64,000 bases of DNA from Aerococcus urinaehominis (GTDB lineage: Bacteria > Bacillota > Bacilli > Lactobacillales > Aerococcaceae): positions 1,594,387-1,658,386 of the forward strand of contig NZ_CP014163.1 of assembly GCF_001543245.1 (NCBI RefSeq). The letters run 5' to 3'. Shown piece by piece: positions 48,707-63,385 of this stretch. A model generated the notes under the pieces. That model worked only from the letters and a program-made list of their open reading frames with translations, was not told where the DNA came from and did not search any database. Made by a program: the position numbers and the translations under genes. The first letter of the stretch is position 1. Each line of letters opens with the position of its first letter.

Positions 48707-50031
48707 TGTCAAGTCCACAATCTTGTGTAAATTATAGAATGTAATTGGTGGGTATAAATATTTAGACTATGTTATTAAAGAATTTATGAGGACATGTCTC
48801 CCAATATTCATGCAAATCAAGCAATACACTTCCTATAAGTCGCTCCGCAGCCTCTATATTAGGAAAGAGGCCGACAACTTTCTCTCTTCTTCTAATTTCT
48901 CGATTTAGCCTTTCTAGACTGTTAGTTGTTTTCAGTGAAACGCGATAAGGTGTGGGTTCTAATAAGTATGGGATAGCATCTTCGAAGCCTTCCTCTAGCG
49001 TATTAACAGCTTTGTCATATTTCTCATTGCCACTAACGTATTCTACAAATTCAAATTTTAACTCTCGCGCTCTTTGTTGACTATCAGCATTAAATATTCT
49101 CTTTAGAAGACTTCTCTCATGACTGCAATCCTTTTTTGGAAAATGAGCTAAAATATTACGTAGAAAATGAACCGTACACCGTTGCCAGGTAGTGCCTAAA
49201 AATTGATTACTAATCGCTGATTTTAGTCCCTTGTGGGCGTCAGATATAATTAATGTTGGTTTAGTTAGGCCTCTGGCCTTTAAATCAAGGAAGAAGTTCT
49301 TCCAGTTTTCTTCTGATTCATTATCAGCAATCATAAAGCCGATAATTTCGCGACGATTATCATCGTTAATACCCTGAGCAATATAAACACCTTTAGAGAC
49401 AGAACGATGGTTTTCGCGAACTTTAATATACATGGCATCGACATAAACATATCGAAAATTCGTATGTGTTAGGGAACGCCCTTTAAATTCGAAAACAGCA
49501 GGGTCCAAGTTTTTATTTACTGAAGAGACAAATGATTTAGAAACACCTTCGCCACAGAGTGTTTCAACAACCTTCTTAATACGGCGTGTTGAGACCCCAT
49601 TAATATACATTTCGGTTAAAACAGCCACAAAGGCCTTGTCCATACGTTGATATTTATCGAATAGCTTGGTATCAAATTCTCCTGATCGTGTCCGAGGGAC
49701 ATCCAGTTCAACAGTCCCTACCTTTGTTTTAAAGTTTCTTTTATAGGAGCCATTACGATAATCTTTCCGGTCATCTGTGCGCTCATAGCGCTTAGCATTA
49801 ATAAATTCCTCACGCTCTGCTTGCATATAGGCATTAAAGATGGTTACAGTTAGGGACTTCATCATCTGATCCATATCACTGTTTAGAACTGCCTCTGTAA
49901 TTTCTTCTAAGTTTAGGGTAATATTTAGTTGAGCCATAATAATCTTCCTTTCAATGTGTTTTAGCCAATTACATTGTAACCAAAAAAGATTATTATGGTT
50001 TTTCTTTTTACACAATTATATGGACTTAATC
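48707..50031 (-). mobile_element. IS256-family insertion sequence, copy 3
   Basis: The same 1,325-bp element, minus orientation, inside array C. The duplication ggctgcg is 7 bp (48700-48706 and 50032-50038), or 8 bp if the C at 50031 is counted as target. Removing it restores the 73-bp phase exactly (48637 to the next unit at 50042). Confidence 0.95.
48762..49937 (-). CDS. IS256-family transposase (copy 3)
   Basis: 391 residues, identical in sequence to copy 4, with Arg in VPRTRSGEF and Ser in HRSVSKGV. Copies 3 and 4 therefore carry the form from which copies 1 and 2 each differ by one residue. Intact. Confidence 0.95.
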   Translation of the reverse strand: MAQLNITLNLEEITEAVLNSDMDQMMKSLTVTIFNAYMQAEREEFINAKRYERTDDRKDYRNGSYKRNFKTKVGTVELDVPRTRSGEFDTKLFDKYQRMDKAFVAVLTEMYINGVSTRRIKKVVETLCGEGVSKSFVSSVNKNLDPAVFEFKGRSLTHTNFRYVYVDAMYIKVRENHRSVSKGVYIAQGINDDNRREIIGFMIADNESEENWKNFFLDLKARGLTKPTLIISDAHKGLKSAISNQFLGTTWQRCTVHFLRNILAHFPKKDCSHERSLLKRIFNADSQQRARELKFEFVEYVSGNEKYDKAVNTLEEGFEDAIPYLLEPTPYRVSLKTTNSLERLNREIRRREKVVGLFPNIEAAERLIGSVLLDLHEYWETCPHKFFNNIV

Positions 50032-53958: not shown

Positions 53959-55283
53959 GATTAAGTCCATATAATTGTGTAAAAAGAAAAACCATAATAA
54001 TCTTTTTTGGTTACAATGTAATTGGCTAAAACACATTGAAAGGAAGATTATTATGGCTCAACTAAATATTACCCTAAACTTAGAAGAAATTACAGAGGCA
54101 GTTCTAAACAGTGATATGGATCAGATGATGAAGTCCCTAACTGTAACCATCTTTAATGCCTATATGCAAGCAGAGCGTGAGGAATTTATTAATGCTAAGC
54201 GCTATGAGCGCACAGATGACCGGAAAGATTATCGTAATGGCTCCTATAAAAGAAACTTTAAAACAAAGGTAGGGACTGTTGAACTGGATGTCCCTCGGAC
54301 ACGATCAGGAGAATTTGATACCAAGCTATTCGATAAATATCAACGTATGGACAAGGCCTTTGTGGCTGTTTTAACCGAAATGTATATTAATGGGGTCTCA
54401 ACACGCCGTATTAAGAAGGTTGTTGAAACACTCTGTGGCGAAGGTGTTTCTAAATCATTTGTCTCTTCAGTAAATAAAAACTTGGACCCTGCTGTTTTCG
54501 AATTTAAAGGGCGTTCCCTAACACATACGAATTTTCGATATGTTTATGTCGATGCCATGTATATTAAAGTTCGCGAAAACCATCGTTCTGTCTCTAAAGG
54601 TGTTTATATTGCTCAGGGTATTAACGATGATAATCGTCGCGAAATTATCGGCTTTATGATTGCTGATAATGAATCAGAAGAAAACTGGAAGAACTTCTTC
54701 CTTGATTTAAAGGCCAGAGGCCTAACTAAACCAACATTAATTATATCTGACGCCCACAAGGGACTAAAATCAGCGATTAGTAATCAATTTTTAGGCACTA
54801 CCTGGCAACGGTGTACGGTTCATTTTCTACGTAATATTTTAGCTCATTTTCCAAAAAAGGATTGCAGTCATGAGAGAAGTCTTCTAAAGAGAATATTTAA
54901 TGCTGATAGTCAACAAAGAGCGCGAGAGTTAAAATTTGAATTTGTAGAATACGTTAGTGGCAATGAGAAATATGACAAAGCTGTTAATACGCTAGAGGAA
55001 GGCTTCGAAGATGCTATCCCATACTTATTAGAACCCACACCTTATCGCGTTTCACTGAAAACAACTAACAGTCTAGAAAGGCTAAATCGAGAAATTAGAA
55101 GAAGAGAGAAAGTTGTCGGCCTCTTTCCTAATATAGAGGCTGCGGAGCGACTTATAGGAAGTGTATTGCTTGATTTGCATGAATATTGGGAGACATGTCC
55201 TCATAAATTCTTTAATAACATAGTCTAAATATTTATACCCACCAATTACATTCTATAATTTACACAAGATTGTGGACTTGACA
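53959..55283 (+). mobile_element. IS256-family insertion sequence, copy 4
   Basis: The same 1,325-bp element in plus orientation inside array D. The perfect 8-bp duplication taaggcga is at 53951-53958 and 55284-55291. Confidence 0.95.
54053..55228 (+). CDS. IS256-family transposase (copy 4)
   Basis: 391 residues, identical to copy 3 and intact. Start at the MAQLN methionine with the GAAAGGAAG site, as in the other copies. Confidence 0.95.
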   Translation: MAQLNITLNLEEITEAVLNSDMDQMMKSLTVTIFNAYMQAEREEFINAKRYERTDDRKDYRNGSYKRNFKTKVGTVELDVPRTRSGEFDTKLFDKYQRMDKAFVAVLTEMYINGVSTRRIKKVVETLCGEGVSKSFVSSVNKNLDPAVFEFKGRSLTHTNFRYVYVDAMYIKVRENHRSVSKGVYIAQGINDDNRREIIGFMIADNESEENWKNFFLDLKARGLTKPTLIISDAHKGLKSAISNQFLGTTWQRCTVHFLRNILAHFPKKDCSHERSLLKRIFNADSQQRARELKFEFVEYVSGNEKYDKAVNTLEEGFEDAIPYLLEPTPYRVSLKTTNSLERLNREIRRREKVVGLFPNIEAAERLIGSVLLDLHEYWETCPHKFFNNIV

Positions 55284-55443: not shown

Positions 55444-56367
55444 ATGAAAAAAATTACTAAAATACTATTAGCACTGGCCAGCTTGGCCCTTGTTTTAGCT
55501 GGTTGCGGGTCCAAGGGCGGCGACCAAAAAGCTGAGGGCCAGGGCATGCAGATTGTCACCAGTTTTTACCCGGTCTACCAGATCACCAAGGCGGTGGCGG
55601 GAGACTTGAATACGGTTCAGATGATCCAGTCAAGCCAGGGCATCCACGACTTTGAGCCGTCTGCCAGCGACATGGCGGCCATTGAGGACAGCGATGTCTT
55701 TGTCTACCATTCCCGGACCCTAGAGGGCTGGGCCAAGAATATCGGTCAAGACGGCAAGCCAACCACTATTGAAGCTTCAGAAGGGGTGGAGTTGAAAAAA
55801 GTTGCCGGACTGGAGGATATGCAGGTCAGCCAGGGGATGGACGAGAAATCCCTTTATGATCCTCATTCCTGGTTAGACCCTGTTTTGGCTGGTCAAGAGG
55901 CTCTCTACATCGCCGACCGCCTGTCAGAGATTGACCCGGACAACAAGGAAACCTACCAGGCTAATGCCCAAGCCTTTAAAGACCGGGCTGACAAGCTGGT
56001 GGCTGACTACCAAGACAAGTTTGCTAGTCTGGACAACAAGACCTTCGTCACCCAGCACACGGCCTTTGCTTACTTAGCTGACCGCTTTGGCCTCAAGCAA
56101 TTGGGTATTGCCGGGGTGGAGTCTAACACTGAGCCAACTGCCCAGCAGCTGACTGAAATCCAGGACTTTGTTAAAGCCAACAATGTTAAGACCATTTTTG
56201 TCGAACCAAACACCAGCCAAAAAATCGCCCAGGTGGTGGCTGAGGCGACTGGGGCCAAGATTGAGACTCTTGACCCGCTGGAAGCCGACCCCAAAACGGA
56301 TGATAGCTTCCTTGACCTGATGGAGAAAAACTTAGAAACCTTGTACCAAGCCTTGAAAAATAACTAA
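55444..56367 (+). CDS. Zinc/manganese ABC-type binding lipoprotein (ZnuA/AdcA-like)
   Basis: A 307-residue cluster A-I metal receptor. The lipoprotein signal ends in LVLAGC (Cys21). Likely metal ligands are the His in SQGIHDFEPS, the His in DPHSWLDP, the His in TQHTAFAYLADRF and the acidic residue in the EPNTS...LDPLEAD region. The His-rich loop usual in zinc-specific ZnuA is absent (the segment before DPHSW is Met/Gln/Ser). A His/Asp-rich lipoprotein gene follows 17 bp later. No permease or ATPase is adjacent, so they must be elsewhere, as in streptococcal adcAII arrangements. Confidence 0.88.
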   Translation: MKKITKILLALASLALVLAGCGSKGGDQKAEGQGMQIVTSFYPVYQITKAVAGDLNTVQMIQSSQGIHDFEPSASDMAAIEDSDVFVYHSRTLEGWAKNIGQDGKPTTIEASEGVELKKVAGLEDMQVSQGMDEKSLYDPHSWLDPVLAGQEALYIADRLSEIDPDNKETYQANAQAFKDRADKLVADYQDKFASLDNKTFVTQHTAFAYLADRFGLKQLGIAGVESNTEPTAQQLTEIQDFVKANNVKTIFVEPNTSQKIAQVVAEATGAKIETLDPLEADPKTDDSFLDLMEKNLETLYQALKNN

Positions 56368-56384
56368 TATAGGAGGAAGTTGCC

Positions 56385-56855
56385 TTGACAAGCAAAAAAA
56401 TATTACTAGCCAGCCTGGCCCTAGTTAGCCTCGCAGCCTGCCAGCCTAACCAGGATGACCAGACAGATGAAAAGGATAATGAAGTGGCCTATGTCCAGTC
56501 TGACCAGGCAAAGGATGAGTATGAGCACGACCATGATCACGACCACGATCATGACCACGACCATGACCACGACGAAGCCCATGGCCAAGAAGTGGTGGTC
56601 AAAATCCTGGCCGACTCCTATGTATCGGCCCACGGTGATCACTTCCATACTTATTCCGGTAAGGTGCCGGCCGATGCCTTGATCAGTAAAGACCTCTTGG
56701 TGGCTGATTACAGCGATGATCAAGTGGTGAGTGACTTGGACGGCGGCCATGTGGTTAAGCAGGGGGAAGAGTATTTGGTCTACTTGGATAAAGGTCAGGA
56801 GGCTGACCAGGTCCGTGATCTGGCGGCCGAGACCAGTGACCAGGCCGAGAAATAA
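56385..56855 (+). CDS. His-rich lipoprotein with single histidine-triad (Pht-like) domain
   Basis: A 156-residue lipoprotein starting at TTG with an AGGAGG site. The signal ends in SLAAC (Cys19). Residues 48-63 are eight His-Asp pairs. A single histidine-triad motif HGDHFH (83-88, HxxHxH) is followed by TYSGKVPADALIS, which matches the start of each repeat in pneumococcal Pht proteins. Those proteins bind zinc at the surface and pass it to AdcAII; here one repeat suffices. The gene shares the transcript of the preceding metal receptor, and a strong terminator follows. The role as zinc scavenger or chaperone is inference from family and context. Confidence 0.85.
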   Translation: MTSKKILLASLALVSLAACQPNQDDQTDEKDNEVAYVQSDQAKDEYEHDHDHDHDHDHDHDHDEAHGQEVVVKILADSYVSAHGDHFHTYSGKVPADALISKDLLVADYSDDQVVSDLDGGHVVKQGEEYLVYLDKGQEADQVRDLAAETSDQAEK

Positions 56856-57523: not shown

Positions 57524-57552
57524 TTGACAAGCTGCAAACAAAGTTTTATAGT
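57524..57552 (+). promoter_or_regulatory. Promoter of the aromatic amino acid operon
   Basis: Perfect TTGACA (57524-57529), a 17-bp spacer and TATAGT (57547-57552). The predicted start near 57559 gives a leader of about 340 nt before aroC. Confidence 0.8.
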
Positions 57553-57581
57553 AATCCTAACAAATTCACGAGGAGGCTATC

Positions 57582-57641
57582 ATGCTAGTCAATTGTTCGC
57601 TATCAATCCAATCAGCTTATTACTTTAGCTTTTTTAGATAG
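57582..57641 (+). CDS. Leader peptide of the aro-phe operon
   Basis: A 19-codon frame preceded by the strong site GAGGAGG at normal spacing, beginning about 23 nt after the predicted transcription start. The product is MLVNCSLSIQSAYYFSFFR, with Tyr-Tyr-Phe-Ser-Phe-Phe just before the end. The genes downstream make chorismate and phenylalanine. This is the layout of peptides that sense charged tRNA in attenuation (compare pheL of enteric bacteria). The codons TTT AGC T can pair with 57700-57707, so a ribosome stalled on them would change the RNA fold. No homologue is known to me. Confidence 0.75.
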   Translation: MLVNCSLSIQSAYYFSFFR

Positions 57642-57839
57642 TGTTTGCAGCTAGATTTAGGTGCAAACACGGCCAAACAACCGGTTTGTATCTATATAGA
57701 GCTAAAGCAATTGATGGTGGCCACCGCCAGAGCCTATGTAGATCGATATAGATCATCTAATGGGCGTCCGGCGCGAGCTTTTTTAGCAGGATATGCACAA
57801 GCTAAGACCTACATTAGATGACCTAGTGTAGGTCTTTTT
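57641..57839 (+). promoter_or_regulatory. Attenuator with competing hairpins and terminator
   Basis: After the leader peptide a 9-bp hairpin (57641-57649 with 57662-57670) is followed by several mutually exclusive pairings. They are leader codons 57623-57630 with 57700-57707; 57690-57697 with 57746-57753; a local hairpin AGATCGAT...ATCATCT at 57740-57758; and 57753-57762 (TCATCTAATG) with 57812-57821. The last invades the terminator at 57804-57839, a 14-bp stem with one wobble and five T. A GGTGGCCACCGCC stretch at 57716-57728 partly recalls the T-box core, but no stem I features are clear. Confidence 0.65.
57804..57839 (+). terminator. Attenuator terminator before aroC
   Basis: AAGACCTACATTAG pairs with CTAGTGTAGGTCTT around a 5-nt loop, followed by TTTTT. 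It lies 60 bp before the aroC start, so it must be bypassed for expression of the operon. Confidence 0.85.
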
Positions 57840-57899
57840 GCGTTCCAACCCATCGTGAATCTGATCCAACTGCTTGTTTAATTAGAAAAGGAGTCTTAT

Positions 57900-59105
57900 A
57901 TGCTACGTTTTATTACTGCCGGTGAGTCCCATGGCCCGGCCTTGACCACGATTATTGAAGGCCTGCCTGCCAACATGCCCCTGGATATTGATGCCATTAA
58001 TGCCAACCTGGCCCGCCGCCAGCAGGGTTACGGTCGGGGGAACCGGATGAAGATTGAAACCGACCAGATTACGGTTACTTCTGGTCTCCGCCACGGTCTG
58101 ACTTTGGGCTCACCGCTGACTTTAACCCTGGAGAACAAGGACTACAGGAACTGGGCCAAGGTCATGGATCCAGCCCCGGTTGCGGACAAGGTCAAGCAGC
58201 AACGAACTGTCCACCATCCGCGTCCTGGCCACGCTGATTTAGTCGGCGGTCTTAAATACGGCTTTAAGGACCTCCGTAATGTGCTGGAGCGGTCATCCGC
58301 CCGGGAGACGACCATGCGGGTGGCCCTGGGTTCAGTGATGGAACAGCTGCTCCAGCATCTAGACATCGACGTGATTGGTTATGTGGCAGCCCTGGGCGGT
58401 ATCCATGGTGAGGTCAACCCAGCTGACTACCAGCCCGACCAGTTGCGCGACATCATCGACCAGTCAGAAGTCAAGATGATCGACCCGGACAAGGCCCAAG
58501 CAATTAAAGACCGGATCGACCAGGCCAAGCGTGATGGCGATACCCTAGGCGGGATTGTTGAAGTCCGGGCCTACAATGTGCCGGCCGGCCTGGGCTCCTA
58601 TGTCCAGTGGGACCGCAAGCTGGATGGTCGTCTGGCTCAAGCCATGGTGTCGATCAATGCCTTCAAGGGGGTGGAATTCGGCGATGGCTTTAAGGTGGCT
58701 GACCGGCCGGGGTCGCAAGTGATGGATGAGATTGCCTATGCGGCTGACCGCGGCTTCTACCACAAGTCCGACCACCTGGGCGGGATTGAGGGCGGCATGT
58801 CCAACGGCGATACCATTATTGTCCGCGGGGTGAAAAAGCCAATCCCGACCCTCTACAAGCCGCTGGATTCCGTCAATATTTATTCTAAAGAAGTCTACCA
58901 GGCCAATATCGAGCGGTCTGACACCACGGCGGTGCCAGCTGCGACCATTATTGCCCAAACCGTGGTGGCCACCGAATTGGCCCAGGCTGTCCTGGAAAAA
59001 TTCCCCCATGATAACTTCAATGACCTCAAGGCCGCAGTCGCCGACTACCGGGCCGACCTCAAGGATCCAGCCATCTGGCAATCGGCAGACCAAGCAGGCA
59101 AATAG
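57900..59105 (+). CDS. aroC: Chorismate synthase
   Basis: Converts 5-enolpyruvylshikimate 3-phosphate to chorismate using reduced FMN, the last step of the shikimate pathway. The 401-residue protein begins MLRFITAGESHG with the first signature. GYGRGNRMKIE (about 42-52), the HHPRPGHADLVGGLKYGF region and RSSARETTMRVA for FMN and substrate phosphate binding follow. It is the first structural gene after the attenuator, with an AAAAGGAG site, and aroA follows 18 bp later. Confidence 0.96.
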   Translation: MLRFITAGESHGPALTTIIEGLPANMPLDIDAINANLARRQQGYGRGNRMKIETDQITVTSGLRHGLTLGSPLTLTLENKDYRNWAKVMDPAPVADKVKQQRTVHHPRPGHADLVGGLKYGFKDLRNVLERSSARETTMRVALGSVMEQLLQHLDIDVIGYVAALGGIHGEVNPADYQPDQLRDIIDQSEVKMIDPDKAQAIKDRIDQAKRDGDTLGGIVEVRAYNVPAGLGSYVQWDRKLDGRLAQAMVSINAFKGVEFGDGFKVADRPGSQVMDEIAYAADRGFYHKSDHLGGIEGGMSNGDTIIVRGVKKPIPTLYKPLDSVNIYSKEVYQANIERSDTTAVPAATIIAQTVVATELAQAVLEKFPHDNFNDLKAAVADYRADLKDPAIWQSADQAGK

Positions 59106-59123: not shown

Positions 59124-60407
59124 ATGAAACAATTATTAACCAATTCGACGGGCCTGACCGGGACCATCCAAGTGCCCGGCGACAAGTCCATATCCCACCG
59201 GGCGGTCATGTTTGGCGCCCTGGCCCAGGGTGAGACGCGGGTGACCGGCTTCCTCAAGGCCGACGACTGCCTGTCCACCATCAGTATTTTCCGCCAGCTA
59301 GGTGTCGATATCCAGGTGACTGACGACCTGGTGACCATTAAAGGCCGGGGCCTGGCTGGCTTGACTGCCCCGACTGGCCCCCTTGATTGCGGCAACTCCG
59401 GCACCACCATGCGGCTCATGTCCGGAATTTTAGCCGGGGCTGACTTTGACAGCCAGCTGGTGGGGGACGCCTCCCTGTCCAAGCGGCCCATGACCCGGGT
59501 GCCTAAACCCTTGTCCCTCATGGGGGGTGTGGTGCAAGGTCAGGGCGACAAGAACCTGCCGCCTTTAAAGATTACTGGTGGCCAAGACCTCACCGCCATC
59601 CACTATGACATGCCCGTGGCTTCAGCCCAGGTCAAGTCAGCCATCCTGCTGGCCGGCCTCCAAGCTGAGGGCGAGACGGTCCTAGTGGAAAAAGAACGGT
59701 CGCGCGACCACACCGAACGCATGCTGGCCCAGTTTGGCGTCGACCTAGACGTTGACGGCAAGATCATTAAAATTAAGGGCGGCCAGTCCTTGACGGCGAC
59801 CGACATCGCCGTGCCGGGTGATATTTCGTCAGCCGCCTTCTTTATCGCTGCGGCCTTGATCATTCCGGGCTCAGACTTGACCCTGACCAATGTTGGCACC
59901 AACCCGACCCGGGCCGGCATCCTAGCAGTGGCCCAGGCCATGGGCGGCCAGGTGGACATTGACTACCTGGATGAGGATCACCTGCGCGCCGACATCCGCG
60001 TCCGGGCCAGCCAGCTCCAGGGCATTGAAATCGCCGGCGACATCATCCCAACCCTGATCGACGAGCTACCGATTATCGCCCTCATGGCCAGCCAGGCCCA
60101 GGGACAGACTGTTATCCGCAACGCCGAAGAGCTCCGCGTCAAAGAAACCGACCGGATTGAAGCCGTCGTGACCGAACTCAGTAAATTAGGCGTCGATATT
60201 ACAGGGACGCCGGACGGCATGATTATTGAAGGCCCTTGCCAGCTTAAGGCAGCCGACCTGGACTCCTACCACGACCACCGCATCGGTATGATGGCCCAGA
60301 TCGCCGCCCTCTTGGTCAAGTCAGGGGAGGTTAACCTGGCCGAGGCCGACTGCGTATCGATTTCCTATCCCGACTTTTATCGGGAAGTTGAGCGGCTGAA
60401 CGACTAA
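59124..60407 (+). CDS. aroA: 3-phosphoshikimate 1-carboxyvinyltransferase (EPSP synthase)
   Basis: Joins shikimate 3-phosphate with phosphoenolpyruvate. The 427-residue protein shows PGDKSISHRAVMFGALA (18-34), LDCGNSGTTMRLMSG (phosphoenolpyruvate site, near 90-104), the DASLSKRPMTRV segment and ELRVKETDRI near 342-351, all conserved. It lies between aroC and aroK, as usual in Lactobacillales. The 209 bp before aroK hold hairpins. Confidence 0.96.
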   Translation: MKQLLTNSTGLTGTIQVPGDKSISHRAVMFGALAQGETRVTGFLKADDCLSTISIFRQLGVDIQVTDDLVTIKGRGLAGLTAPTGPLDCGNSGTTMRLMSGILAGADFDSQLVGDASLSKRPMTRVPKPLSLMGGVVQGQGDKNLPPLKITGGQDLTAIHYDMPVASAQVKSAILLAGLQAEGETVLVEKERSRDHTERMLAQFGVDLDVDGKIIKIKGGQSLTATDIAVPGDISSAAFFIAAALIIPGSDLTLTNVGTNPTRAGILAVAQAMGGQVDIDYLDEDHLRADIRVRASQLQGIEIAGDIIPTLIDELPIIALMASQAQGQTVIRNAEELRVKETDRIEAVVTELSKLGVDITGTPDGMIIEGPCQLKAADLDSYHDHRIGMMAQIAALLVKSGEVNLAEADCVSISYPDFYREVERLND

Positions 60408-60616: not shown

Positions 60617-61135
60617 ATGTCTATTTATCTCATCGGCTTCATGGGGGCTGGCAAGACCACGGTCGGCCGCATCCTGGCTGACCGGCTCAACCAGCCTTTT
60701 GTTGACCTGGATGATTATATTGCCGACCAGGCCGGCCTCAGTGTCCCGGAAATTTTTGAACAATTTGGTGAAGGCCACTTCCGCCAACTAGAACTTCAGG
60801 CCATTCAAGCTAGCCTGGACCAGCCGGGGGTGATTGCGACGGGGGGCGGCTGTGTGGAGACGCCGGCGGTTTGCCAGCTACTCAGTCAGGCCGACCGGGT
60901 TTATTATCTCCAGGCTGACTTTGATGCCCTCTACCAGCGCATTCAACAGGATACTGAAACCATCCGCCCCTTGGCCCAACCTGGTCAGGAGGCGGCGACC
61001 AAGGCCCGCTACCTGGCCCGGCAAGCGCGCTACCAAGAAGCGGGCGGCCAAACCATCAATACTGACCTGATGACACCCGACCAGGTGGCCGAGTGGATTA
61101 TCAATGATTTAGAAAGAAGGGACCACCATGGCTGA
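60617..61135 (+). CDS. aroK: Shikimate kinase
   Basis: Phosphorylates shikimate with ATP. The 172-residue P-loop protein has GFMGAGKTTVGRILADRL (6-23, Walker A), the shikimate-binding VDLDDYI and GGGCVE, and RPL in the lid region. An AAGAAGGAAAG site precedes the ATG. It overlaps the following transporter gene by 8 bp. Confidence 0.94.
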   Translation: MSIYLIGFMGAGKTTVGRILADRLNQPFVDLDDYIADQAGLSVPEIFEQFGEGHFRQLELQAIQASLDQPGVIATGGGCVETPAVCQLLSQADRVYYLQADFDALYQRIQQDTETIRPLAQPGQEAATKARYLARQARYQEAGGQTINTDLMTPDQVAEWIINDLERRDHHG

Positions 61136-62441
61136 TATGCCGATGACTGCCCAAGTGGCAACAGATGAAGCGATTAAAATGACTAGTAAACGTTATGCCC
61201 CAACCGCCCTGGGCATCTATATGAACTACCTGATCCACGGTATGGGCGTGATTATGATTTCCCAACACCAAGAGGTCCTCATGGCCCAGTGGGGGACTGA
61301 CCTGATGGGGATTTCCTCAGTGATTTCCATGCTGGGGATTGGCCGCCTGATTGCCATTGTGGCGTCCGGTCCCTTGTCGGACAAGTTCGGCCGCCGTCCA
61401 TTTATCAAGCTGGGCATGGCCATCTACCTGATTTTCTTCCTAGGCATCCTTTTGACCACCAATATCCATGTCGCCATGGCCTGTGCAGTGGTGGCGGGGC
61501 TGGCCAACTCCTGCCTGGATTCGGGTTCCTATCCGGCCCTGATGGAGGCCTTCCCCTTGCGTGCTGGTACGGCTAATGTGTTGATCAAAGCCTTTGTCCA
61601 AATTGGCCAATTTATTTTGCCCTTTATGATTTCATTATTAGTGGCCCTGGACATGTGGTTTGGCTGGACCTTTATCCTGGTCATGCTGGCCCTGGTGGTC
61701 AACATGGTTTACCTGTCCCGCCAGCCCTTCCCGGATGAGGACATGAAGGCCCTTGCCCAGGCCCAAAAAGCCCAGCAGGCCGACAGTGACCTAGCCAATC
61801 CTGACGCGGACGACGAGGTGGCGATTAAAGTCATCAACCCCATCAAGCACAAGGCCCAACCCAAAATGTGGTTGGAGGGGACGGCCTTTATCCTCTATGG
61901 TTTCGTCTCCCAAGCGACCTTCTATGTGGTCTCCCAGTACATCAATACTTATGGTCAGGCCACGGCCGGTCTGTCCACCAGTCAAGCCAACCAGCTCCTG
62001 TCCTACTACTCAATTGGGTCTGTCCTCTGTGTGGCGGTTTCCGCCTGGCTAGCCAGCCGGGTCCGGACGGTCAACCTGGTCTTGGTCTACACCTTTGCTT
62101 CAGCCATCGCCATTTTCCTGATGTGGCAGTGGCCAACGCCAACCATCCTGAGAATCGGCAGCTTCCTAGTTGGCTTCTTCGCTGCGGGCGGTGTCATGCA
62201 GCTGGGTCTGACGGTTATGGGCCAAATGCTACCGGTCGGTAAGGGAGCCATTACCTCAGTCTTCTATACCTTTGGCTCAATTGCTTCCTTTACCATGCCC
62301 ATGATCGCTGGCTACCTGGCCCAGCACCATGTGGCCTGGATCATGGCCCTGAATTTTTGGATTGCCGTGCTGGGCTTTGTCCTGGCCCTGATTATCTTTA
62401 TTCGTTACTACCAAATTATCGACACCGACCGGGCTAACTAG
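61128..62441 (+). CDS. MFS transporter in the aromatic amino acid operon
   Basis: A 437-residue major facilitator with 12 predicted TM segments and a hydrophilic central loop (about 205-245, rich in Asp, Gln and Lys). The MFS loop motif is seen as SGPLSDKFGRRPFIKLG (about 84-100). It starts within aroK (ATG 61128 before the stop at 61133-61135) and precedes pheA, so it is regulated with Phe synthesis. It could take up shikimate, quinate or an aromatic amino acid, or export one. The substrate is not readable from sequence. Confidence 0.85.
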   Translation: MADMPMTAQVATDEAIKMTSKRYAPTALGIYMNYLIHGMGVIMISQHQEVLMAQWGTDLMGISSVISMLGIGRLIAIVASGPLSDKFGRRPFIKLGMAIYLIFFLGILLTTNIHVAMACAVVAGLANSCLDSGSYPALMEAFPLRAGTANVLIKAFVQIGQFILPFMISLLVALDMWFGWTFILVMLALVVNMVYLSRQPFPDEDMKALAQAQKAQQADSDLANPDADDEVAIKVINPIKHKAQPKMWLEGTAFILYGFVSQATFYVVSQYINTYGQATAGLSTSQANQLLSYYSIGSVLCVAVSAWLASRVRTVNLVLVYTFASAIAIFLMWQWPTPTILRIGSFLVGFFAAGGVMQLGLTVMGQMLPVGKGAITSVFYTFGSIASFTMPMIAGYLAQHHVAWIMALNFWIAVLGFVLALIIFIRYYQIIDTDRAN

Positions 62442-62491: not shown

Positions 62492-63385
62492 ATGAAAATT
62501 GCTTACCAAGGCATTCCCGGCTCTTACAGCCATGCCAGCCTCATTGACTATTTGAAAATCAACCAGATTCCCCAAAAGCAGGTCGACATGGTCACCTACA
62601 CCGATTTTGCCGTCATGGTGGCTGACCTGGTTCAAGGCCACGTGGACCGGGCCGTTATGCCGGTGGAAAATTCGACCACTGGCCTGATCACCCGGACCCT
62701 GGACCACTTCCGCTACCAGCCGGTCTGCGCCATCCAGGAGCTCTACCAGCCGGTCCAGCACACCCTGTGGGGCCTGCCCGGCGCCCAAATCGCTGACTTA
62801 GAAGTGGTCTACTCCCACCCGGAAGCCCTGTCCCAGTGCCAGTCCTTCTTCGCCGCCTATCCCCATATCAAGGCTGAAGAATACCACGATACGGCCGGGG
62901 CAGCCCGCTTTGTCAGCCAATCTGGTAACCCTAAATATGGGGCCCTGTCCTCAGCTACGGCTGGCGCCCTCTACGGCTTAACCAGCCTCCAAGATAAGAT
63001 CCAGTCGGAAACCACCAATATGACCCGGTTCTTTGTCATGGAAAGGCTGGCCGTGCCCAAAGCCGGGCTAGGGGCCGTCCTCAACCGCTGGCGGCGGGAG
63101 CGCGTCCAAGCCAGCCGGCTCATGCTTTACGTGGAAACCCGCCACGAGCCCGGCGCCTTGGCCAAGCTATTAGATGTTTTCCAGCTCTTCGACTGTAACC
63201 TCAACGGCCTGGACGCCCGGCCGATTAAAGACAAGCCCTTCAACTATGGCTTCTTTATCGAAGTGGATACGGCTGGCCTGGCCCTGGACCGGCAAGTCTT
63301 CTGGCAGACCCTGGAGTATGCCGCGGCCTATGTCCAACTCATCGGCTGCTACCAGGCCCAAGAAGTCTTGGTTGATTACCTGTAA
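62492..63385 (+). CDS. pheA: Prephenate dehydratase
   Basis: Converts prephenate to phenylpyruvate, the branch step to phenylalanine. The 297-residue protein has the catalytic domain (GIPGSYSHAS at about 7-16, MPVENSTTGLI near 55-65, the essential TRF in NMTRFFVM near 170). A C-terminal ACT domain (about 205-297) follows, with PGALAKLLDVFQLFDCNL and DARP in place of the usual ESRP for phenylalanine feedback. No chorismate mutase domain is fused. It is the last recognisable gene of the operon. Confidence 0.94.
   Translation: MKIAYQGIPGSYSHASLIDYLKINQIPQKQVDMVTYTDFAVMVADLVQGHVDRAVMPVENSTTGLITRTLDHFRYQPVCAIQELYQPVQHTLWGLPGAQIADLEVVYSHPEALSQCQSFFAAYPHIKAEEYHDTAGAARFVSQSGNPKYGALSSATAGALYGLTSLQDKIQSETTNMTRFFVMERLAVPKAGLGAVLNRWRRERVQASRLMLYVETRHEPGALAKLLDVFQLFDCNLNGLDARPIKDKPFNYGFFIEVDTAGLALDRQVFWQTLEYAAAYVQLIGCYQAQEVLVDYL

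Follow-up and report, generated by a model that had tools for sequence, protein, structure and literature searches.

The window analysed is a stretch of 64,000 nucleotides of Aerococcus urinaehominis DNA. It contains five genes in the order aroC-aroA-aroK-MFS-pheA, preceded by a leader region with a promoter, a short reading frame, a series of RNA segments and a terminator (Table 1). Just 5' of the leader, at 55444-56855, a zinc/manganese-type substrate-binding lipoprotein is followed by a histidine-rich protein of the pneumococcal-histidine-triad kind. Two frames of 417 residues lie about 4 kb apart in opposite orientation (48762-50015 on the minus strand and 53975-55228 on the plus strand); their translations look identical and are transposase-like by eye.

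Table 1. Leader features and genes of the aroC locus, numbered from the first letter of the window
Feature	Position	Strand	Basis or remark
Sigma-A-type promoter, TTGACA-17-TATAGT	57524..57552	+	consensus match only, 11 of 12 positions
Shine-Dalgarno AGGAGG of leader frame	57571..57576	+	sequence
Leader peptide frame, MLVNCSLSIQSAYYFSFFR then stop, 19 aa	57582..57641	+	Tyr/Phe tail kept in relatives
Control codons TAT TAC TTT AGC TTT TTT (Y Y F S F F)	57618..57635	+	Ile/Leu/Val or Trp codons instead where downstream genes differ
Segment 1 (B), TGTTTGCA	57642..57649	+	1:2 covariation
Segment 2 (B'), TGCAAACA	57662..57669	+	partner of segment 1 or segment 3
Segment 3 (C), GTTTGTATCTATAT	57684..57697	+	partner of B', leader-frame AGATA, or segment 4
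Segment D, AGCTAAAG	57700..57707	+	complement of control codons CTTTAGCT; z -18.1
Second hairpin (segments 4 and 5, E:F), -18.5 kcal/mol	57726..57772	+	hides 57753-57762
Segment 5 (F), TCATCTAATG, antiterminator strand	57753..57762	+	F:G z -19.5
Segment 6 (G), CATTAGATGA, within terminator, pairs with segment 5	57812..57821	+	
Intrinsic terminator, 14-pair stem and T-run	57804..57839 (stem 57804-57836)	+	
aroC, chorismate synthase	57900..59105	+	TIGR00033, 404 bits, cut-off 212
aroA, 3-phosphoshikimate 1-carboxyvinyltransferase	59124..60407	+	TIGR01356, 425 bits, cut-off 287
Shikimate kinase (aroK-like)	60617..61135	+	under curated cut-offs, best E 1.4e-32
MFS transporter, aromatic acid/H+ symporter-like	61128..62441	+	weak, E 2e-15, under cut-off
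pheA, prephenate dehydratase	62492..63385	+	NF008865, 170 bits, under cut-off 219

The leader frame begins ATG CTA and closes with TAT TAC TTT AGC TTT TTT AGA TAG, so that YYFSFFR-stop is the end of the 19-residue peptide. The initial annotation had described this frame with its AGGAGG and its Tyr-Tyr-Phe-Ser-Phe-Phe-Arg end, competing pairings, and a terminator some 60 bp before aroC; all are present in the sequence, and the distance to the aroC start is 63 bp. The promoter that it called perfect is indeed there, but is near-perfect. Three pairings were already recognized: control codons 57623-57640 with 57689-57707, 57690-57697 (ATCTATAT) with 57746-57753 (ATATAGAT), and the antiterminator of 10 pairs between segments 5 and 6. 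Two more, absent from that account, are central here, namely segment 1 with segment 2, which gives the first hairpin (57642-57669), and 57658-57668 with 57684-57694 (11 pairs, 2 of them G-U; positions by eye). The pairings of the relay proposed earlier were thus retained and segments 1 and 2 added, but the codon pairing had been assigned to the state without a stall. With translation finished, the ribosome at the stop codon would sit on the control codons themselves, so segment 3 is then probably held by 57658-57668, and the codon pairing fits untranslated RNA.

The region 57560-57845 folds at -99.3 kcal/mol, compared with -69.2 +/- 4.4 for 200 dinucleotide shuffles (z -6.8), and none of the 200 shuffles was as low. 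An Rfam scan of the aroC leader at the gathering threshold gave zero matches. At a relaxed threshold the sole notable match was RF02863 sRNA_2410 (42.6 bits, E 1e-5). Two sub-threshold matches over the leader core, COG2827 RNA (57631-57708, minus strand, E 0.18) and rspL sRNA (57625-57700, plus strand, E 8.5), either lie at the level of chance or hint that pieces of the leader element are filed under other Rfam sRNA families.

Distribution of the leader element and its codons

Related elements were sought with BLASTN, with an exact core pattern and with three covariance models. R1 models the core together with codon columns from Tyr/Phe and Ile elements, R2 begins downstream of the codons and is blind to them, and R3 is a Trp model that includes one Trp codon. 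Since R1 and R3 contain codon columns, the codons of their matches, though not the genes, are partly given by the search. With the A. urinaehominis genome itself counted for BLASTN, R1 and R2, the leader matched 28 of 60 genomes in BLASTN, R1 matched 48 of 76 genomes of the family and 112 of 198 of the order, and R2 matched 50 of 76 and 240 of 395 Lactobacillales genomes. In a sample of the class, R1 matched 13 of 151 genomes, 11 of them Lactobacillales; in a sample of the phylum, whose number of order members is not listed, it matched A. urinaehominis alone (1 of 199) and none of the 198 other genomes. The exact core pattern occurs in 105 stretches; the 80 of them listed include named records from many Streptococcus (S. 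suis and S. pneumoniae among these), as well as from Ruoffia, Fundicoccus, Eremococcus, Hutsoniella, Globicatella, Vagococcus and an Aerococcus. The S. pneumoniae copy encodes MNKRQAVTMNQNFYFSYFR followed by a stop codon, and by eye lies 5' of a substrate-binding protein gene. Two elements come from outside the order Lactobacillales and are possibly transfers: L092 (genome G256; YYFSYFR) precedes a protein grouped with TrpX-like ones, and L098 (G367; FYYYFGFFR) precedes an aminotransferase.

With 120 further places fetched, a set of 194 elements, 190 of them unique, was compiled; left out were a model match in G367 that seemed false on inspection (L091), a larger copy of the L002 region (L003) and a second spurious regular-expression match in L124. 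Of the 190, 183 have both a terminator-like and a second hairpin, a raw count with no shuffled control. Frames were picked by Shine-Dalgarno sequence and start codon, and under this rule a frame ends at the core in 189 of 190 elements, L208 having none; a strong Shine-Dalgarno sequence does not stand at every chosen start. In 31 of the 190 (L159, L164, L171 and L187 among them) the stop codon comes 9 nt further on, within the 5' strand of the first hairpin. These late-stop leaders encode ...FRxCL-stop, and a ribosome at their stop codon would sit differently.

Downstream genes were sorted into groups of similar proteins, and an NCBIfam scan covered one representative of each. Ile/Leu/Val tails stand before branched-chain genes in 20 of 20 cases (LivJ-type binding protein 10, ilvE 5, ilvA 3, ilvB 2). 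Tyr/Phe tails stand before aromatic-side genes in 163 of 165, a class that is in part an assignment of this analysis because several NCBIfam matches fell under the curated cut-off and the scan gave none for the anion transporter or for the TrpY-like permease. The class comprises TrpX-like binding proteins (115), aroE (29), a family-3 binding protein (7), pheA (4), an anion-type transporter (3), DAHP synthase (2), an aminotransferase (2), aroC, and TrpY-like and TrpZ-like genes. Fisher's test on the resulting two-by-two table, whose elements are not phylogenetically independent, gave p 7e-25; it omits L208, L024, L125 and two elements without a downstream gene. For biosynthetic genes alone the match is 10 of 10 for Ile/Leu/Val and 36 of 36 for Tyr/Phe (p 2.5e-10). 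The two mismatches, L007 and L127, arose because the rule chose an alternative ATG frame; their other frames read FFGFFR and YFYSFYR. Element L125 has a branched-chain-type tail, IINRIYIR, before an OppA-like oligopeptide binding protein.

Across 110 elements, Tyr and Phe make up 79% of residues -6 to -1 versus 3.4% in the rest of the leader, and Trp occupies 0 of the 660 control positions; L204 (QYWFSYFR) lies outside that set. Tyr and Phe interchange at five positions, while within the Tyr/Phe class Ser is kept in 140 of 166 tails and Arg in 159 of 166. In these elements one shared RNA scaffold carries leader codons that match the downstream gene.

A further class has Trp codons. When 20 places matched by the codon-blind model R2 were fetched, 10 proved to be Tyr/Phe elements and 10, all weak matches, Trp elements, with tails such as RWQGWHR, RWQNWHR, NWQSWHR and RWQSH directly before the stop codon. 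The Trp model R3 matched 212 of 390 order genomes; its weaker matches may include cross-matches to Tyr/Phe elements. Inspection covered 49 Trp elements from 46 of the 212 R3-matched genomes (the 10 codon-blind R2 matches and 39 from R3), with L398 (RWQSQ-stop) and the near-copies L405 and L408 left out. Trp is in frame in 49 of 49; the automatic count was 43, and the remaining six read ...RWQSH-stop. TrpX-kind binding proteins stand behind 47 of the 49 by eye, L402 precedes trpB (612 bits, cut-off 392), and L370 precedes a protein of neither kind.

A tree was built from 82 binding proteins, 45 of the 74 non-redundant ones behind Tyr/Phe leaders and 37 behind Trp leaders. With the exception of the L370 protein, a long-branch row, the Trp-leader proteins (36 of 37) group together as a single clade (support 100/100) that lies within the Tyr/Phe-leader family. 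The NCBIfam TrpX profile (cut-off 390) scored 467 and 351 bits for two Trp-leader proteins and 297 bits for the Tyr/Phe-leader protein of A. urinaehominis. These scores fit different substrates for the two groups and are no proof of them.

The genome of A. urinaehominis itself has two further copies. L002 encodes ...NNKYYFSFFR-stop and precedes a TrpX-like protein. L412 (G000:C1:71288-71380, E 3.4e-5) belongs to the Trp class; its frame reads SWRWPHR, runs on to VVVDM-stop and precedes another TrpX-like protein. At five same-genus aroC loci (protein identity 65%) the element was absent by Rfam and by R1, and two further genomes have a distant aroC only (32%). The aroC copy of the leader is, by this comparison, a lineage-specific and local arrangement.

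Pairings and the predicted switch

The pairings were assessed by comparing duplex energies of each element's own segments with those of partners swapped between elements, using 134 non-redundant members of the 183 elements with both hairpins. The antiterminator F:G gave z -19.5 (own partner better than the median partner in 122 of 134), codons with D z -18.1 (120 of 134) and B:B' z -14.1 (104 of 134). B':C gave z -7.7, yet the own partner beat the median in only 54 of 134; A:C, the pairing of the leader-frame AGATA with segment 3, gave z -5.4 (28 of 134) and C:E z -4.8 (75 of 134). The controls E:G, C:G and F:G' gave +0.9, 0.0 and -1.5. A further intended control, E:G', came out at z -3.3, which may be due to the likeness of E to G. 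Since E:F and G:G' had been selected as hairpins, they are uninformative in this test. For C:E within the Trp class z was -1.9, and 74 of 2000 permutations did equally well; the hairpin picker used there was crude and found a T-run behind the hairpin in 22 of 48.

Column-wise covariation was counted in 38 diverse elements of the 134. For 1:2 (B:B'), 97.6% of cells are paired, both sides change at 7 of 8 pairs, and all 500 shuffles are beaten on every measure. For 2:3 (B':C), 93.1% of cells are paired. Both sides change at 4 of its 11 pairs, a figure reached by 12 of 500 shuffles, but its number of pair types is equalled in 294 of the 500. The case for 2:3 and for C:E is accordingly weak. AGATA:TATCT is almost invariant, hence uninformative. 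By eye, the Ser codon pair AGC:GCT is swapped to GGC:GCC, AAC:GTT and others in several elements (L007, L013, L053, L207, L098, L126, L205, L039 and L132; L209, L150 and L151 are misfits). Ser becomes Gly, Ala, Asn or Tyr along with its partner in D, and the Tyr/Phe codons stay Tyr or Phe. The frame, the codon-gene match, the terminator and the conserved pairings, several of them covarying, can be read from a comparison of the sequences.

A relay can be drawn from these pairings. The leader would be translated by a ribosome trailing RNA polymerase. A ribosome that stalls on the Tyr/Phe codons would allow segment 1 to pair with segment 2, so that segment 3, left without a partner, could take up 57746-57753 and thereby open the second hairpin. 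Segment 5 could then pair with segment 6, no terminator would form, and aroC-pheA would be transcribed. A ribosome that reaches the stop codon should cover segment 1, given the standard footprint; segment 2 would pair with segment 3, the second hairpin would stay closed and the terminator would form. In untranslated RNA, a third state, 57689-57707 would be taken up by the codons and AGATA, and the terminator would again be left. On the same scaffold, ilv/liv genes have Ile/Leu/Val codons in front of them, and trpX-type genes and trpB have Trp codons. Stalling, its dependence on charged tRNA and its effect on transcription are the steps that we infer.

The relay was modelled with equilibrium folding ensembles from which the RNA under and before the ribosome was removed. 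In the first test the transcript ended 2 nt past the 5' arm of the terminator, in the second at the tip of the terminator loop. Over the 134 elements, the first test gave mean pairs of 6.1 (1:2), 5.3 (2:3), 3.7 (C:E), 4.7 (E:F) and 6.5 (F:G) for a ribosome stalled on the codons versus 0.0, 10.7, 0.3, 8.4 and 3.6 for one at the stop. From stop to stalled, F:G went up in 74 elements, down in 11 and stayed the same in 49; in the loop-tip test the numbers were 73, 10 and 51. A switch of structure between stalled and finished ribosome is thus predicted for most elements. The aroC leader had no switch in the first test (F:G 0.7 versus 0.2), and in the loop-tip test F:G was 7.5 stalled, 2.9 at the stop and 0.0 untranslated; L002 kept F:G in every state of the latter. 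Once the transcript includes the complete terminator, the equilibrium ensembles retain it whatever the ribosome's position, so the decision must fall during transcription.

Alternative explanations and known systems

The aroC leader is very probably a ribosome-mediated transcription attenuator responsive to charged tRNA-Tyr and tRNA-Phe, and it belongs to a modular family of the Lactobacillales. The best reading is therefore still that of the initial annotation, a Tyr/Phe leader-peptide attenuator before aro-pheA, amended to one member of a codon-swappable family. The conservation expected in relatives is seen for Tyr/Phe codons, pairings and terminator at many other aromatic loci, though not at the same-genus aroC loci. 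Loss of the frame with the terminator kept, which had been put forward as evidence against attenuation, does not describe those loci: the sole terminator-like hairpin spotted 5' of their aroC genes seems, by eye, to belong with the preceding gene. The T-box was the rival named at the outset. T-boxes control many amino acid genes of Lactobacillales, his genes for example (PMC9413887, consulted in part), but a T-box with a Tyr or Phe specifier is almost certainly not what lies before aroC, as neither the gathering threshold nor a limit of E 10 brought up a T-box in the leader, and 20 relatives scanned at gathering had none either. It is also unlikely that the family is real but its member at aroC is degenerate, or constitutive, after a move to this operon; the lineage-specific position and the missing switch in one of two folding tests would suit this, but promoter, frame, codons, terminator and the antiterminator are intact and the loop-tip test predicts switching.

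A trans-acting small RNA with an incidental frame would agree with the way Rfam files the Enterococcus relatives. RF02863 matches the aroC leader below its gathering score of 61 and matches 4 of 20 relatives above it, and according to the part of PMC5593968 consulted, sRNA_2410 gives two transcripts on Northern blots of E. faecium, with a listed size of 195 nt. This is nevertheless highly improbable: the elements sit on the same strand 5' of matching amino acid genes, their codons follow the gene, the RF02863 consensus begins inside the leader frame, and a terminated leader would itself give a discrete short RNA. RF02863 is the same RNA as the leader element, matching L012, L018, L022 and L027 over its full length above gathering, and its consensus includes both the outer stem and the first hairpin; it differs in being filed as an sRNA gene, and its gathering score misses the aroC leader and 16 of the 20 relatives. 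The E. faecium transcripts, as far as that source describes them, are in keeping with a terminated leader. Little credence is given to an arrest peptide, in which nascent YYFSFFR would sense a free small molecule in the ribosome tunnel and not a codon-specific tRNA shortage. The strongly conserved Ser and Arg of the tail could be read that way, but Tyr and Phe replace each other, the tail turns to Ile/Leu/Val or Trp with the gene, the upstream part of the peptide is variable, and the Ser and Arg codons lie in RNA pairs, several Ser swaps accompanying a change in the partner strand. A ligand-binding aptamer was set aside because the same core serves three amino acid groups, and purely translational control in view of the terminator-like hairpin in nearly all elements.

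More generally, attenuation by this element is likely to be codon-programmable. One homologous scaffold, present in more than half of the sampled Lactobacillales genomes and in several copies in some, would have changed its codons in evolution to suit Tyr/Phe, Ile/Leu/Val or Trp and been transferred from operon to operon, as a ribosome-reading counterpart of the T-box. If this is true, leader codons reveal the substrates of uncharacterised transporters, and many TrpX-profile-like proteins would be importers of Tyr/Phe rather than Trp. For streptococci, aerococci and their relatives and, judging from the RF02863 match, for enterococci, the shared scaffold would mean a further layer of regulation; with its copy in S. 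pneumoniae, much-studied organisms would be affected. At least one Rfam sRNA family would be explained as a terminated leader, and attenuators that change specificity while the RNA pairing is kept would offer a natural experiment.

Control of amino acid operons in Gram-positive bacteria is commonly ascribed to T-boxes, CodY, TRAP and the like. No re-codable scaffold shared across Lactobacillales was described in the open literature searched, nor were the leader peptide strings found there; subscription journals were mostly uncovered and priority is not established. The leu-ilv operon of Lactococcus lactis reportedly has a predicted branched-chain leader peptide (Godon 1992), which is like the present leaders in kind and order and may or may not use the scaffold. 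Panina et al. (2003), said to treat aromatic regulons in low-GC Gram-positives, and Slager et al. (2018), reportedly a pneumococcal annotation, may each hold part of a description of the family.

Ribosome-mediated attenuation is the mechanism of the E. coli trp, pheA and his operons. The present leaders share with these the control codons for the product amino acid, the relay of exclusive hairpins and the intrinsic terminator. They differ in having six consecutive pairings versus three (in the Tyr/Phe and branched-chain classes), in re-coding one conserved scaffold for different amino acids, and in their occurrence in Lactobacillales. The sections consulted of PMC3616900, PMC8632094 and PMC6296669 hold nothing on the leader family. 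In Staphylococcus aureus, ilvD has a leader peptide attenuator with Ile and Leu codons (PMC5794164), and the consulted part of that report cites predictions for branched-chain genes of Lactococcus and Streptococcus. This is likewise Gram-positive leader-peptide attenuation; it comes from another order, a single operon is described there, and the likeness drawn here, from part of the report, is one of description. Leader attenuators of his genes are reported from bacilli, Peptostreptococcaceae and Erysipelotrichales (PMC2965389, PMC9413887, each consulted in part). As described there, they resemble the present family in using codon-run leader peptides in place of T-boxes, and differ from it in reading His only, the his genes of Lactobacillales being reported with T-boxes (PMC9413887).
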